A DNA stretch of 64,000 bases from Planctomycetaceae bacterium (GTDB lineage: Bacteria; Planctomycetota; Planctomycetia; Planctomycetales; Planctomycetaceae). Where the stretch lies: positions 1 through 64,000 of the forward strand of contig WFTL01000179.1 in NCBI GenBank assembly GCA_015485495.1. The letters run 5' to 3'. This document shows, piece by piece, positions 3,637 through 44,500 of this stretch. The notes below the pieces were generated by a model that ran no database searches, was not told the origin of the DNA, and was given only the letters and a program-made list of their open reading frames with translations. How positions within the stretch are numbered: the stretch's first letter is position 1; each line of letters begins with the position of its first letter. The position numbers were made by a program, and so were the translations under genes.

Positions 3637-5412
3637 TCATGAAGCCGAATCAGCAGTTCCTGCAGCATCGCCCGGTTGCAGTTCCGGGCACATCGCCGGA
3701 AGGCAGTCCGCCCCGCGCCCCTGGAACACAAACGGCCGCTCCGAATCGGACACCGCGCGGACCTCCGCCCCCGGATCCCGGACACAGACGATTCCGATCC
3801 GGAGACCTGCCGTTTCCAGATGGTTCAGAATCCAGTCGACATCGGGCGCATCGATGAAAACCATGCTCGGCCGGCGCAGCGCGATCCGGGCGATCTGCAG
3901 CCTGTGCCTGTCGTCCACGGACAGTTTCCAGCCGTCCGCACCGGTGGACTGCGCCAGCCATTCGGACACGTCACCTGCGTTTTCCAGAAGACGCCCGGCG
4001 ATGTCCTCCACCTCACGACCGTCCGCACCCGGACGGGCAATGAAAATGTTTTCCAGAATCGACCCCTGAACAATGATCGGACGAACCGCATACCAGCCGA
4101 TCTGCCGGCGAAGTCTGCGGATACTCAGAACATCGGCCGACTGTCCGTCGATCAGCAGTTCCCCGGATTCCACAGGACGCACGCCCATCAGAGCATCGAA
4201 AGCCGTCCGATAGCCGGATTCCCGCAGCAGCACCGGCGGGTCTCCGGATTTCAGTTCCAGAGACAACGCGGCCGTCGGCTGTTCCCGGCCATCAGGTTTC
4301 AGAATGAGATTTCGGAACCGGATCCTGTGCCGGATGCGGACTGTTTTCTTTCTCCTGGACGACCGGCCCGGTTCGGCCTTTCGTTCCAGAATCCGCAGAA
4401 TGCGATGAACGGAAACCATCGCTTTCGCTTCCTGCACAGCCGCCAGCGACAGCCGCTGAAGAACGACAGCCGTGTGCACAGCCAGCCACGTCATGGCCAC
4501 GAACTGTCCCGCCCCCAGTGTACCGGCCCACACAGACTGCACCCCGAACCATCCAAGCAGAGGCACCGGCAGGAAAGCCAGAGTCGCACCGACCAGGCGA
4601 ACAGCGGCGGCGAACCGTTCCCGGTGAATATTGGCTTCGCACACATCATCGGCAGCGTCCGTGACGCCCCGGACAGCATCACGAAATGCGGCCAGCCATT
4701 TTCCGTATGCGATGGAACTGAGAAAACTTTCGACGCGTCCCGTGAATGATGCCTGCAAAGACCGGGCCGCACGCGTTCGCCGTCGCAGCCCCGGCGTCAG
4801 CAGCAGAATGACACACAGTGTCAGCAGCATCGGAACGATGACTGCCAGCGACAGCGCCGGACTGACTGCCATCATGCCGACCGAAAGTACGGCCAGCAGA
4901 ATGCGGTCCGCGACAACGGCCGGCCATGTGCGTGAAAACCACACACGCAGCGCATCGGAATCGCCAATAAAGCGCAGAAGCACCCTGCCCGTCCCGCGAC
5001 GGCGCACATACCTGGCGGGAAGCCGCAGAATGTGTTCGAACATCGCTGCTCGCAGATCGGCGACCAGCGTATGACCGCATCGCCCCGAAAGGGACACGAA
5101 GACGAATCCGGCTGCTCCCCGCACCAGAGCGGCCACGCAGCCGGCAACGATCAGCAGCATCAGCAGCCCGTTCGGGTCTACAGGTCCCCACGGAGTGGTA
5201 ACGGCCGACTGTTTCAAAATCGGATCCAGCGTGAACCGGAGCAGGACCGGGACCACCAGCGGAGCCATTCGCAGAACAAGCGAAATCGACGTCAGGCGGC
5301 GCAGCGTCTTTCTCTGACGGTCGAAAATCGCAGCCAGCTCTTCCTGAGCACGAACAGTCCGCGACCGTGTCTTTTCACCAGACAGCGATCGCACCATTCG
5401 AAGACTGAGCAT
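3637..5412 (-). CDS. ABC-type exporter (fused TMD-NBD) with degenerate nucleotide-binding motifs
   Basis: Six-TM type-1 exporter N-terminus; NBD recognisable (RRLRRQIGWYAVRPIIVQGSILENI) but Walker A, signature and Walker B are degenerate. Confidence 0.7.
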   Translation of the reverse strand: MLSLRMVRSLSGEKTRSRTVRAQEELAAIFDRQRKTLRRLTSISLVLRMAPLVVPVLLRFTLDPILKQSAVTTPWGPVDPNGLLMLLIVAGCVAALVRGAAGFVFVSLSGRCGHTLVADLRAAMFEHILRLPARYVRRRGTGRVLLRFIGDSDALRVWFSRTWPAVVADRILLAVLSVGMMAVSPALSLAVIVPMLLTLCVILLLTPGLRRRTRAARSLQASFTGRVESFLSSIAYGKWLAAFRDAVRGVTDAADDVCEANIHRERFAAAVRLVGATLAFLPVPLLGWFGVQSVWAGTLGAGQFVAMTWLAVHTAVVLQRLSLAAVQEAKAMVSVHRILRILERKAEPGRSSRRKKTVRIRHRIRFRNLILKPDGREQPTAALSLELKSGDPPVLLRESGYRTAFDALMGVRPVESGELLIDGQSADVLSIRRLRRQIGWYAVRPIIVQGSILENIFIARPGADGREVEDIAGRLLENAGDVSEWLAQSTGADGWKLSVDDRHRLQIARIALRRPSMVFIDAPDVDWILNHLETAGLRIGIVCVRDPGAEVRAVSDSERPFVFQGRGADCLPAMCPELQPGDAAGTADSAS

Positions 5413-33345: not shown

Positions 33346-33417
33346 AACCCGGTGGTGTAATTGGTAGCACAACAGATTTTGGTTCTGTTAGTTCAGGTTC
33401 GAGTCCTGGCCGGGTTA
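33346..33417 (+). tRNA. tRNA-Gln (anticodon UUG), CCA not encoded
   Basis: Acceptor AACCCGG/CCGGGTT, D-loop GGTGGTGTAATTGGTAGCAC, anticodon arm ACAGA-TTTTGGT-TCTGT, T-loop GTTCGAGTC. Confidence 0.95.
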
Positions 33418-38177: not shown

Positions 38178-38780
38178 TCACAGCTTTTCATCAAGCACCC
38201 GTTCGCAGCGCACGAAACTGGGGAGATGCTGTCGGAGCACCGCGGGATTGAGTTTTCCGACGATTTCAAACGACTTCCGTCCTTTGGTATAGGCGTTTTT
38301 GCATTTCTGAGTTGCGCGGATCAGGGCGTCCTGTATCGCCTCTCGCGGGCGCGACTCCATATTGGTCAGGCTGGGCAGCGCATTGTCCTGGAGACAGCTG
38401 CCGAAATGTTCCTGCAGCGTCTGTCGGTCGGATGCGATCCAGGTCTCCATACACGTCGTCATCAACAGGACCTGCTCATTCACTGCGCCGTCAGGCTGCT
38501 CCCAGCCGTCGCGACTCTTCAGATGCCGCCAGGTTTCCTCGATGTCGGCAACCGGCTCTTCGCTGTCGACCAGCATGGCCACGTAATCGCCGTCACCTGC
38601 ATGCGCCTGCGCGGTCGAGAAGTCATCGAATGTCGCCCCACGTCCACCGCAGGCGACCAGACGCGGCATCCGTCCGCTGAAACCACACTTTTCCAGCAGT
38701 CGACGAAAACCTTCCCGGCAGCGTGTGTGCAGTTCCTTCGAATCGCCGCCTCCCTCAATGTAGCCCCTGGCGTTCACCAT
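38178..38780 (-). CDS. DUF4276/TOPRIM-like protein
   Basis: YIEGGGDSKELHTRCREGF...DYVAMLVDSEEPV TOPRIM-like acidic motifs; start overlaps the end of the ATPase gene. Confidence 0.7.
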   Translation of the reverse strand: MVNARGYIEGGGDSKELHTRCREGFRRLLEKCGFSGRMPRLVACGGRGATFDDFSTAQAHAGDGDYVAMLVDSEEPVADIEETWRHLKSRDGWEQPDGAVNEQVLLMTTCMETWIASDRQTLQEHFGSCLQDNALPSLTNMESRPREAIQDALIRATQKCKNAYTKGRKSFEIVGKLNPAVLRQHLPSFVRCERVLDEKL

Positions 38781-39946
38781 CGTGTTCCTCCGATTTCGCC
38801 ACGAACCCAGAGCTGGCCCAGGCGGTATTTTTCCAGCCATTGTTTCAGCTCTTTCGTTGCCTCAAGACGTCTGGCCTGCGTCGTACCGTCATGCTTTTCA
38901 ACAACGACCACTGCTTCCGGCTGGTCGCTCATCGCATCGACCAGAATGTCTGAATGCGTCGCCACAATCAGCTGCGTCCTCTCGGATGCAGCGACCAGCA
39001 GATCGGCAATTTTCGGAATCATGTCGGGGTGCAGGCCGAGTTCCGGCTCCTCGATACACACAAGCGCCGGCGGATCCGGGTCGCACAGAATCGCCAGCAG
39101 GCACAGATATCTCAGCGTGCCGTCTGACAGACGGCTGGCAGGAATGATGAAGTTCCTCTCGGTCAGGAACACTTCCACCGTTCCGCCCCTGATCCGTACG
39201 TCAAATTCATCCAGCCCCTCATACAGGTCCCGCATGTGACTGATGATCGTCCGCTTGGTTTCCGGCTCGCCGCGCAGGTGATTCAGAAACAGTCCCAGAT
39301 TGGAAAGATTCTCTTCGAGAGAGTCGCTGGGCAGGTCGGCCGATTGCGGGCTGCGAAAGACCGATTTGCGTCCGAAGGACCATTCGCGATACAGCCGCAC
39401 CCCCTCATACGATTCGCCCAGATACGCCAGCTCCGGATACTGATCGGGATCCTTGCGCTGCGACAGGATCGACTCGTGGGGTGAAACGTCTTCGCGGCGA
39501 AGCTGTCGGCTGCCTTCATCTCGCACCGACAGCACCGGACGTCCGTTCTGATAGCGATAATAGAAGAACGGCTTATCATGTCCCGGATCGGGTTCACGTT
39601 TTTCGATCGCTTCGTCAACCAGCTCGAATCGCGCAGCGGTCTCGGTGAATTCGATGCGATGTCGGATCGGCTGGGCGCCGTCCGGATAATCGACAACCGC
39701 TTCGATCAGAGCATGGCCGTTCCCTGAACCTTTCCAGATCCACTCTTTGACGCCGCTGCCACCGGGACCTCGTATCGGCGCGCTCAGTCTGGTCGGTGTC
39801 GACCGGAGCAGGTCGACCGATTCGATCAGATTCGACTTGCCCGACCCGTTCGGGCCGATCAGCACATTGAGCGGCCGCAGCTTCAGCGGCGGCGTGTCCG
39901 GCCCGAACGACAAAATGCCGCGCAACGTCAGTTCATGAATCAACAT
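38774..39946 (-). CDS. AAA (AAA_21/OLD-like) ATPase
   Basis: MLIHELTLRGILSFG...LNVLIGPNGSGKSNLIESVDLLR Walker A; SRLSDGTLRYLCLLAIL signature; LVCIEEPELGLHPDMI Walker B; LIVATHSDILVD. Confidence 0.9.
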   Translation of the reverse strand: MLIHELTLRGILSFGPDTPPLKLRPLNVLIGPNGSGKSNLIESVDLLRSTPTRLSAPIRGPGGSGVKEWIWKGSGNGHALIEAVVDYPDGAQPIRHRIEFTETAARFELVDEAIEKREPDPGHDKPFFYYRYQNGRPVLSVRDEGSRQLRREDVSPHESILSQRKDPDQYPELAYLGESYEGVRLYREWSFGRKSVFRSPQSADLPSDSLEENLSNLGLFLNHLRGEPETKRTIISHMRDLYEGLDEFDVRIRGGTVEVFLTERNFIIPASRLSDGTLRYLCLLAILCDPDPPALVCIEEPELGLHPDMIPKIADLLVAASERTQLIVATHSDILVDAMSDQPEAVVVVEKHDGTTQARRLEATKELKQWLEKYRLGQLWVRGEIGGTRW

Positions 39947-40656: not shown

Positions 40657-40817
40657 GTGGCCTGGGGGCCGGATAAGCTTCAGCCGTTCACGGCACTGCG
40701 GGGCAACCCCGCAGCAGAATCGTTGTTCCCGTTTCGTCGCACGAATCTGCACCGGGTCGCGCCCTGTCGACCCGCTGCAGATTCGCCACAGGATTCGTTA
40801 TCCGGCCCGCAGGCCAC
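40657..40817 (+). ncRNA. Retron ncRNA (a1-msr-msd-a2)
   Basis: a1 GTGGCCTGGGGGCCGGATAA (40657-40676) and a2 TTATCCGGCCCGCAGGCCAC (40798-40817) are 19/20 complementary; candidate branching G at 40677; hairpins GCCG-TTCA-CGGC, CTGCGGGG-CAA-CCCCGCAG, CGAATCTGC-AC-CGGGTCG-CGCCCTGT-CGACCCG-CT-GCAGATTCG; ends 28 nt before the RT start. Confidence 0.9.
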
Positions 40818-40845
40818 ATGTTTTTCCGGGGCGCAGGGATGTGTC

Positions 40846-42114
40846 ATGGGGCTGTTCGATTTTCTTCGCCGCCTGTTCTCGAAACAGCCGTCCGACAGGA
40901 ATGCGGCACCCGTCGTTCTTCCCGTTGCCGATCCGGAATCGAACGAAGCGGCAAAATGCGGCCTGACGCCTCTGCGCTACCGTTCCAGCCTGAAACCGGT
41001 TCCACCGGCTGATGAACAGGCCGACAGATCACCGTATCTGTTTTCCTGGCGGAATCCGCAGAACGACGGCTTCCTGGATCTGTCCACCGATGCGGACGAA
41101 CAGTGGCTGGCGGATTTCGGCCTGCCGCATCTGAAAACACCGACCGACCTGGCCGATTTTCTCCAGGTCCCGCCAGGACAGCTTGCCTGGCTGATTCATC
41201 GCGGACAGCCGGGATGCCGCCCCGGCAGTGTCCGGAAGGCGCACTACCACTACCGCTGGCTTCCGAGAAAAACGGGAGGCCACCGACTCATCGAAGCTCC
41301 CCGCCCCAGACTGAAGGCCGTTCAGCGGCGGATTCTGCGCGGCATTCTCAACCGCGTCCCGGCCCATCCGGCGGCCCATGGTTTCGTTTCCGGGCGTTCC
41401 ATCCGCACAAATGCCGAACCGCACGTGGGCCGGTCGATTCTGCTGACATTCGATCTGGAAAACTTCTATCCGTCTGTCGGATATTCCCGGGTGGTGGCCA
41501 TCTTTCGGACCATGGGATTTTCGCGTGAGGTGGCTTTGTGGCTGGCCCGTCTGACCACGTCCACCGTTCCTCCCGGGCTGACCGCTCCGTCGGAAGCGGA
41601 CCTGCGTCCTTACCGCACCCGCCATCTGCCCCAGGGCGCGCCGACATCACCGGCGCTGGCCAACCTGTCCGCATTTGCACTGGATGTCCGCCTGTCTGGC
41701 CTGGCCCGCCGGTTCGACGTCCGCTACACCCGCTATGCCGATGACATCACGTTCTCCGGCCACGGACGATTCGGCGGTGCTCTGAAAGACTTCATCCCTC
41801 TGGTGACCGCCATCGTACGGGATGAACGCTTTTCGGTTCATCGGCGCAAACGCCGCGTGCTGCGGCGCGGGCAGCGGCAGATGGTGACCGGCGTGGTCGT
41901 CAATGAAAAGATCAATGCCGCCCGCAGGGATTACGATCAGCTCAGAGCCATCCTGCACAACTGCATCCGGCACGGTCCGTCGACTCAGAACCGCGACGGA
42001 CTCGAACACTTCGCGGCCCATCTGGCGGGGCGCATCGGACACATCCGGCACCTGAATCCTCAGCGCGGACATCGTCTGCGGCAGATGTTCGACCGCATCG
42101 ACTGGTCCCGGTGA
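40846..42114 (+). CDS. Retron reverse transcriptase (422 aa, with N-terminal extension)
   Basis: RT motifs FDLENFYPSV, LPQGAPTSPALANL, YTRYADDITFSG; retron-specific NAEPH (NAxxH, 41410-41424) and VTG (41884-41892) followed by LRAILHNCIRHG. Confidence 0.95.
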   Translation: MGLFDFLRRLFSKQPSDRNAAPVVLPVADPESNEAAKCGLTPLRYRSSLKPVPPADEQADRSPYLFSWRNPQNDGFLDLSTDADEQWLADFGLPHLKTPTDLADFLQVPPGQLAWLIHRGQPGCRPGSVRKAHYHYRWLPRKTGGHRLIEAPRPRLKAVQRRILRGILNRVPAHPAAHGFVSGRSIRTNAEPHVGRSILLTFDLENFYPSVGYSRVVAIFRTMGFSREVALWLARLTTSTVPPGLTAPSEADLRPYRTRHLPQGAPTSPALANLSAFALDVRLSGLARRFDVRYTRYADDITFSGHGRFGGALKDFIPLVTAIVRDERFSVHRRKRRVLRRGQRQMVTGVVVNEKINAARRDYDQLRAILHNCIRHGPSTQNRDGLEHFAAHLAGRIGHIRHLNPQRGHRLRQMFDRIDWSR

Positions 42115-42864: not shown

Positions 42865-43338
42865 ATGACGCGCGATTCCGAACAGAATTCCGGCACAACC
42901 GACCCGGCCATCCCCGAACGGGGGCGGCTGCTGGGCATCGATTACGGAACGGTGCGCGTGGGCGTGGCGGTCTGCGATGTGCAGCAGCGGCTGGCCAGCC
43001 CTTACGAATCGTACACGCGCCGCAGCCGGCAGGCGGATGCGGATTTCTTTCGGAACTGTGTGCGGGAATTCGAAGCGGTGGGTCTGGTAATCGGACTTCC
43101 GCTGCACATGTCGGGCGAAGAAAGCGACAAATCCCGGGAAGCCCGACAGTACGGCCGCTGGCTGTCCCGCGTCACAGAACTGCCGGTCGCCTGGCAGGAT
43201 GAACGGCTCAGCACCGCTCAGGCCGACGTCCTGCTGCACTCCGTGGATCTGTCATCTCGCCGTCGCAGACAGCACCGGGACAAGCTGGCCGCGCACATCA
43301 TTCTGCAGAGCTGGCTCGACCGCCGCCGCTCCGGTTAG
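42865..43338 (+). CDS. ruvX: Putative Holliday junction resolvase (YqgF/RuvX family)
   Basis: LLGIDYGTVRVGVAVCD; LVIGLPLHMSGEESDKSREAR; WQDERLSTAQAD; LAAHIILQSWLD. Confidence 0.92.
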   Translation: MTRDSEQNSGTTDPAIPERGRLLGIDYGTVRVGVAVCDVQQRLASPYESYTRRSRQADADFFRNCVREFEAVGLVIGLPLHMSGEESDKSREARQYGRWLSRVTELPVAWQDERLSTAQADVLLHSVDLSSRRRRQHRDKLAAHIILQSWLDRRRSG

Positions 43339-44273
43339 CCCGGTTCCGGAGGCGGTTCGGTTTCCACATCGTGCCACTTCATGGCTGCCTGCAGAGGTTC
43401 GATCCGCAGAACGACCTTGCCGTTCTGAAAGATCCGCACGGTGCCGGTGGACTGAGACACGGCCACGGCCACCGCATCGGTCGCCTTGGAAATCGAAGCG
43501 GCCGCCCAGTGACGGGACCCCAGCCCTTTGGACAGTGCCAGACCATCGGCAGCGGCCAGAAGATAGCGGCCGAATCCGTGAACAATACCGTCTGAAGAAA
43601 TGATGAATGCACCGTCGACCTGAGCGAGTTCCTTGATGCTTTCCCGCACGCGCGGATTGCGAACGGACCGTTCGTCCTTCGGATAAGCACCGCCCCGAAA
43701 CGGGTCGTGCACCTGTTCCTGAGACAGACTCAGCACCTTGCGATGGTGACCGACAACGAAAATCGTGCCCACCGGCTTGCCTTCGCGGCCTTCCCGACCG
43801 ATTTCGCAGGCCAGATCGACCACCTGTCGCAGAGTATCCAGCGGAACCTGCGTTTCCAGACGCTGCAGATCACGAGACGTGAGCCGGGCCAGATGCTCAG
43901 ACAGTTCCACGGCACTGATCGTGTCGCAGCGGCTGCTGTCGTAGGACGAATACACGGCCACGATGGTGTCGCCGGACTGGAGCAGCTCGTCCGCAATCGC
44001 CTCCAGAAGAACCTGAGACACCTGGGTGCTGCGCGTCTGCGGTTCGTGCAGAATGGGAACCAGGTCCACGTCGTCCTGCTGAACGGCTTCCTGAACCTGA
44101 GCGTCTTCACTGGCGACGACCAGGCGGCGGCCCCGCAGAAGCTTCTGAATCGCCCGGAAATCGAGTACATCATCGGTGAGCAGCACGACAGCGGCCGCAT
44201 CGGACAGATCGGCCAGCCGGTGAGCGGCTTTGAGAAGGTTTCGGAACTGCGGACTGATCTTGCGGCGTTTCAT
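43335..44273 (-). CDS. DisA_N/DAC-domain protein (putative diadenylate cyclase)
   Basis: VDGAFIISSDGIVHGFGRYL...GLGSRHWAAASISKATDAVAVAVSQSTGTVRIFQNGKVVLRI. Confidence 0.8.
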   Translation of the reverse strand: MKRRKISPQFRNLLKAAHRLADLSDAAAVVLLTDDVLDFRAIQKLLRGRRLVVASEDAQVQEAVQQDDVDLVPILHEPQTRSTQVSQVLLEAIADELLQSGDTIVAVYSSYDSSRCDTISAVELSEHLARLTSRDLQRLETQVPLDTLRQVVDLACEIGREGREGKPVGTIFVVGHHRKVLSLSQEQVHDPFRGGAYPKDERSVRNPRVRESIKELAQVDGAFIISSDGIVHGFGRYLLAAADGLALSKGLGSRHWAAASISKATDAVAVAVSQSTGTVRIFQNGKVVLRIEPLQAAMKWHDVETEPPPEPG

Positions 44274-44500
44274 GGCAGGGAGTGTAGGACACACCGCACG
44301 CCGGTCAACAATCGTCTCAAAGGCTTTCGCAGTTTGCTGCCTCGCCGCCCGCCCTGTCCCGCCGCTCCGACTGATCCCACAGCCGGTCGCTGCCACAGCC
44401 GGTCGTCCGGTCGGTCCTCCCGGGTCCTCCCGGGCGGCCCTGCTGAGCATCCGAACGGATGCGTCCGCCGAACGCCCGCCGCCAGGATGTCCACAGCAGG

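Follow-up and report, generated by a model that had tools for sequence, protein, structure and literature searches.

Retrons are usually patchy in their distribution and horizontally spread, and their function is now explained mainly by linked toxins in abortive infection. Retron Eco1 (Ec86, type II-A), with its linked nucleoside-deoxyribosyltransferase-like effector and sporadic distribution, has the closest solved fold to the reverse transcriptase (RT) that we describe here (TM-score 0.83-0.86 on the Ec86 length). The two retrons have in common the a1/a2 repeat, the priming G, the msr hairpins and the msd hairpin; their RTs are 27% identical, and that of Ec86 is not known to have an N-terminal extension such as our RT has.

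The retrons of the myxobacteria, present in 27 of 28 strains, are mainly vertically inherited (PMC6868368). Four of these, Mxa1 (Mx162), Mxa2 (Mx65), Sau1 (Sa163) and Nex2 (Ne144), resemble the element described here in their N-terminal RT extension, vertical inheritance, high prevalence and msr-msd-RT order, a likeness that we draw by description only. An amphipathic or transmembrane RT N-terminus, an RNA in trans and a planctomycete host are, in contrast, planctomycete features that do not form part of the description of the myxobacterial retrons (PMC6868368), and the planctomycete msd is much shorter than the 162-nt product of Mx162.

Our locus lies in the window (by which we mean the whole 64,000-nucleotide stretch of Planctomycetaceae DNA that was analysed). 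We read it as a complete, mainly vertically inherited, effector-less and probably membrane-tethered planctomycete retron, and put the probability of this overall reading at about 0.88. The retron RT class itself is already known; what is provisionally new, as far as checked, is a family-wide covarying RNA, vertical descent in planctomycetes, a probable membrane anchor, the lack of a dedicated linked effector, and a split form. A limited search of the literature, pairing retron with planctomycete terms, found no description of the planctomycete element.

The reverse transcriptase and the retron RNA of the window

The original prediction was of a complete retron, with an RNA just upstream of its RT gene, and all four of the RT motifs that it named (NAEPH, QGAPTSP, YADD and VTG) were found in place (Table 1). 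The RT does fall within the retrons: its best PADLOC profiles are RT_other (PDLC02949; 462 bits over residues 50-421) and RT_outgroup (PDLC03740; 436 bits over residues 88-420); retron RTs (Ec86, Ec67, Ec78 and others) come first among the nearest solved chains by sequence in the PDB; and an AlphaFold2 model, built from the window sequence and 37 relatives (mean pLDDT 89), finds only retron RT chains at Foldseek ranks 1-18, with group II and DGR RTs at ranks 19 and 23. The NCBIfam retron models score 189-195 bits versus 33 bits for the group II intron maturase model (group_II_RT_mat); that low score, together with Foldseek ranks that follow 18 retron chains, rules out a group II intron or DGR RT. 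Neither a Pfam search nor the structure model revealed a fused effector domain in the RT.

The best PADLOC profiles are not those of a typed retron (types I-XIII): RT_other and RT_outgroup are bins of unclassified retron RTs, without a named effector or RNA. As RT_other-type profiles score this family well, related RTs have probably been surveyed before, but without a type or an RNA being given to them. A sister planctomycete clade (clade 2) scores up to 527 bits against RT_other, which suggests that the window clade is related to RT_other but is not its core. Type XIII (RT_XIII, PDLC02956), the third PADLOC profile, scores 351 bits, over 100 below RT_other, and differs in that no partner genes of a typed retron system are conserved in the neighbourhood of the window-type RTs (80 loci). 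Clade 2 (L191-L213) is a second planctomycete retron clade, having an RNA with a similar msr hairpin (of the CGGGG-NNN-CCCCG type), and is co-resident with the window-type retron clade in some genomes.

A complete a1-msr-msd-a2 RNA is found 5′ of the RT gene, at 40657-40817. The predicted inverted repeat is present, with 19 of 20 bp paired and one mismatch, and its 3′ arm does end 28 nt before the RT ATG at 40846. When the upstream 400 nt were shuffled 300 times, no repeat of equal quality arose, and the fold of the RNA region is 6.7 sd better than that of dinucleotide shuffles. The layout of the RNA, with small msr stem-loops and one long msd hairpin, is as in retrons, and G40677, at the inner end of a1, sits where the priming guanosine of retrons is defined to be (PMC6868368). 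No family in Rfam 15 fits the retron RNA at the gathering threshold; the sole Rfam match in the window is a tRNA gene at 33346-33417 (+).

Table 1. Positions of the retron features in the window, with the RNAs that lie in trans in genus g16
Feature	Position	Strand	Basis
a1, 5′ arm of the 20-nt inverted repeat (GTGGCCTGGGGGCCGGATAA)	40657..40676	+	95% complementary to 40798-40817
Predicted priming (branch) guanosine, 2′-5′ linkage of msDNA	40677	+	G after a1 in 74/74 loci
msr stem-loop 1, GCCG-UUCA-CGGC	40683..40694	+	MFE fold
msr stem-loop 2, CUGCGGGG-CAA-CCCCGCAG	40696..40714	+	most conserved element; 99.2% of cells paired
msd hairpin, template of the predicted msDNA	40742..40785	+	18-bp inverted repeat
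CCACAGGATTCG adjoining a2, predicted first-copied template	40786..40797	+	conserved in alignments A1/A2
a2, 3′ arm of the 20-nt inverted repeat	40798..40817	+	pairs with a1
Retron reverse transcriptase, 422 aa	40846..42114	+	ORF, retron profiles, model
N-terminal amphipathic helix of RT (MGLFDFLRRLFS), predicted membrane anchor	40846..40881	+	motif recurrence
NAxxH (NAEPH), retron region X	41410..41424	+	H193 invariant in RT alignment A3
QGAPTSP	41632..41652	+	sequence
YADD catalytic motif	41734..41745	+	invariant in RT alignment A3
VTG, start of retron region Y	41884..41892	+	G349 nearly invariant in RT alignment A3
g16 trans RNA, first genome	L292:5001-5170	+	complete RNA
g16 trans RNA, second genome	L293:5001-5172	+	complete RNA
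g16 trans RNA, third genome	L294:5001-5173	-	complete RNA

Conservation, inheritance and split form of the retron

A search of 170 genomes from the family to which the window belongs provided 80 loci for comparison, taken with flanks of up to 5 kb. Adding the window gives 81, of which four begin at a contig end, leaving 77 with upstream sequence. Loci from other families whose RT is similar but whose upstream hairpins differ (e.g. Bacteroidota L018, L021 and L031) were excluded, and five loci were aligned via hand-set motifs. The same RNA is found upstream of the RT in 74 of the 77 loci (window counted), and in every one of them the base directly 3′ of a1 is a G, here in the context AAG[C/A/T] and not the commonest TAGC. 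Length and sequence of msr stem-loop 1 differ between relatives.

In a 62-sequence alignment, compensatory changes were seen in 25 of the 33 predicted pairs, a level that 500 shuffles did not match. Paired cells amount to 93.3%, versus 79.2% in column shuffles and 37-43% with slid partners, and the covariation score is 0.446, versus 0.183 in column shuffles and at most 0.10 with slid partners. This covariation spans all three helices: a1/a2, where 15 of 18 pairs have both-sided changes, the msr hairpin CUGCGGGG-NNN-CCCCGCGG, and the hairpin of the msd, where both-sided changes occur in 7/7 aligned pairs of the stem. The a1/a2 complementarity of the original prediction is thus kept among homologues, with compensatory changes. 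Taken together, the presence of the RNA in nearly all loci, its covariation, and sequence and structure matches in which retron RTs come first support the call of a retron, with a retron-class RT and a complete a1-msr-msd-a2 RNA; that this retron is complete and would make msDNA we regard, by analogy with characterised retrons, as highly probable.

A hairpin resembling msr stem-loop 2 is also found upstream of clade 2 RTs and of relatives from other phyla. Such an msr-like hairpin (CCGGGGTTACCCCGG and variants) lies upstream of related RTs at L006-L010, L012, L016 and L039, and its carriers include Burkholderiales, Thermoleophilia and Pseudonocardia-type loci. The similarity of the msr hairpin across those groups suggests, at the level of sequence, that there may be a wider retron superfamily.

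A covariance model from the 62-sequence alignment, run over the 170 family genomes at a threshold of E<1e-10, matches 106 of them, nearly always in one copy, and 104 of these 106 hold the RT. In the two that do not (G035 and G037), a contig end lies about 0.5 kb or less from the RNA. By our own count the RNA adjoins the RT in 97 of the 104 genomes, and another four have them on separate contigs, each at a contig end or close to one; the remaining three belong to genus g16, with the RNA in trans. Two tandem RNA copies were seen upstream of one RT in a single genome (G061; C274:3931-4083 and 4250-4402). Outside the family, the model found the RNA in five genomes of a phylum sample, each with a related RT nearby; among 151 genomes sampled from another phylum there was an RT match in just six, even at E<=1e-30.

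The three genomes of g16 carry the RNA on another contig instead of upstream of the RT, flanked by a sulfotransferase-like gene and a transporter-like gene, and its location is shared by all three. No RT was found within the flanks of these RNAs (L292-L294), the RTs being on other contigs (L146, L160 and L156), and the contigs of G053 are so long that a distance of at least about 90 kb must separate RNA and RT. The msd stems of these g16 RNAs have different sequences and yet keep their pairing, which argues for selection on the free-standing RNA, and the sequence arrangement predicts that msDNA synthesis would occur in trans. No account of a naturally split retron came up in a limited literature search.

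Trees of the RT and of IspG (the product of a core gene that lies in the window) were compared for 66 genomes. Each of the 12 testable genera forms a clade in the RT tree and in the IspG tree, the two trees have 26 of 63 splits in common, and their distance matrices correlate with a Mantel r of 0.53, a value reached in 0/999 permutations. As the RT tree tracks that of a core gene, inheritance appears to be mainly vertical, and we consider it very likely that the retron is both mainly vertically inherited and effector-less. The window copy may be an exception to this vertical descent: its RT, which is nearest to the RTs of genus g25, is located away from the common locus, and two genomes of the same genus are without window-type RT and RNA, so that this copy may have been transferred, or its sisters may have lost theirs.

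The RT N-terminus, the neighbouring genes and rival explanations

In most of 78 RTs the first element is a short amphipathic helix (for example MGLFDFLRRLLFG), after which comes a linker that varies, and the window RT starts with this conserved helix (MGLFDFLRRL...). In three genomes (G080, G007 and G008) the amphipathic helix is replaced by a hydrophobic stretch of membrane-spanning length (mean hydropathy 2.3-3.0 over 17 residues). A similar motif (MGLSFLKKLFGG, MGLGFLKRLFGG or MGLGFLRRLFGG) opens the RTs of a second family whose RNA is related; the clade 2 RTs, which belong to the window's own family, have an unrelated, soluble-looking N-terminus. The RT model has a helix at residues 3-11, with most of residues 1-60 at low confidence. 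The swapping of an amphipathic helix for a transmembrane-like one is the pattern expected of a membrane anchor and, reading from this pattern and from the start codons chosen, we think that the RT is probably tethered to the membrane via its N-terminal helix.

No conserved dedicated effector was found beside the RT, within 5 kb, in the 80 loci; an effector that is encoded elsewhere, or that differs from locus to locus without homology, may exist. The commonest neighbour is a polytopic protein of ~265 aa that matches no Pfam family and is encoded immediately after the RT in 38 of the 80 (these being among L111-L190); next in frequency are a divergent M50 peptidase (26/80) and MutL (14/80; identified by its sequence). 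The gene for the polytopic protein occurs in 147 of the 170 family genomes, including several without window-type RT (G003, G014, G016, G099, G100 and G117), and this family-wide presence, even where there is no RT, suggests a core gene in ancestral synteny rather than a dedicated toxin. Close to the window retron, at 43335-44450 (-), lies the gene of a diadenylate cyclase in which Pfam recognises a DacZ_P sensor domain.

The polytopic protein might still be an effector, forming with the RT a membrane toxin complex that the window genome would supply from another contig: it is encoded immediately 3′ of the RT, on the same strand, in many genera, the RT N-terminus is membrane-like, and a homologue is present in the window genome (G000 C74:19099-19596). 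We find this unlikely, however, since a gene so widespread, and present in some genomes without the RT, is better explained as a core gene. The window itself offers other candidates, as a divergent AAA_21 ATPase (~38774-39946) and a DUF4276 protein (38178-38840), both (-), adjoin the retron, which could then be an ordinary anti-phage tripartite retron with this pair as its effectors. The two match the PADLOC candidate defence system HEC-01A/HEC-01B (574 and 225 bits), and ATPase and TOPRIM effectors in other retron types provide a precedent. But HEC-01 is catalogued as a separate system, and the pair, on the opposite strand and ~0.7 kb from the RNA, does not form a recurring neighbour family beside the RT among the 80 homologous loci, for which reason it was rejected as the effector and the tripartite explanation seems to us most improbable. 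An anti-phage role is, for the planctomycete lineage, a hypothesis.

Two further explanations would deny the RNA, or the whole element, a role. In the window no stop interrupts the RT frame as far up as 40489, and the RT could be read through from a GTG there, the inverted repeat being merely coding sequence; yet 64 of the 74 homologous loci have an in-frame stop between a1 and the RT ATG, which refutes read-through and argues against taking the RNA for a coding extension of the RT N-terminus. With indels in the RNA region that are not multiples of three, and with pairs that covary, we give this explanation practically no chance. A selfish or decaying element without a host role would be in keeping with a lineage of no known function, and the role of the vertically inherited myxobacterial retrons was likewise left unexplained in a review (PMC6868368). 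That the catalytic motifs, the RNA pairing and the priming G are all retained across about 50% protein divergence, that the retron is near single copy and vertically descended, and that the RNA persists even apart from the RT, makes such an element a very unlikely one.

Proposed action of the retron and its significance

Drawing on the conserved anatomy and on known retron biochemistry, we propose that pairing of a1 with a2 would set the invariant G40677 at the end of the stem, and that the RT would bind the msr hairpins and prime from the 2′-OH of this G. It would then copy CCACAGGATTCG (just 5′ of a2), followed by the msd hairpin, so that the predicted first DNA bases are CGAATCCTGTGG; the role of CCACAGGATTCG as the start of synthesis is taken from established retron biochemistry. 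The product would be a branched, RNA-linked DNA (msDNA), staying bound to the RT. The N-terminal amphipathic helix could hold the RT-msDNA complex at the inner membrane, in which case the msDNA particle should be a membrane-tethered complex.

As to what such a complex might do, we put forward, somewhat short of even odds, a near-core, membrane-tethered retron, distinct from abortive-infection modules with a linked effector, and with an RNA that may work as a free-standing gene in trans (as in g16). Fixed in the chromosome, it could serve as a guard or sensor with an unlinked partner, responding to phage or membrane stress, and this we offer more tentatively still.

A retron that is vertically inherited across a family, without a linked effector, reopens the question, raised by the myxobacteria, of what benefit the host derives. 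As this planctomycete group has complete genomes, deletion tests may be possible. The probable membrane anchor is a concrete lead on the site at which the complex acts, and the trans arrangement provides a natural example of RNA and RT at separate loci. The covariance model of this 150-185 nt RNA finds a gene that is missed by ORF callers and by Rfam. If the near-core, membrane-tethered reading is true, the retrons of this lineage would have a conserved role in the cell or in membrane surveillance.
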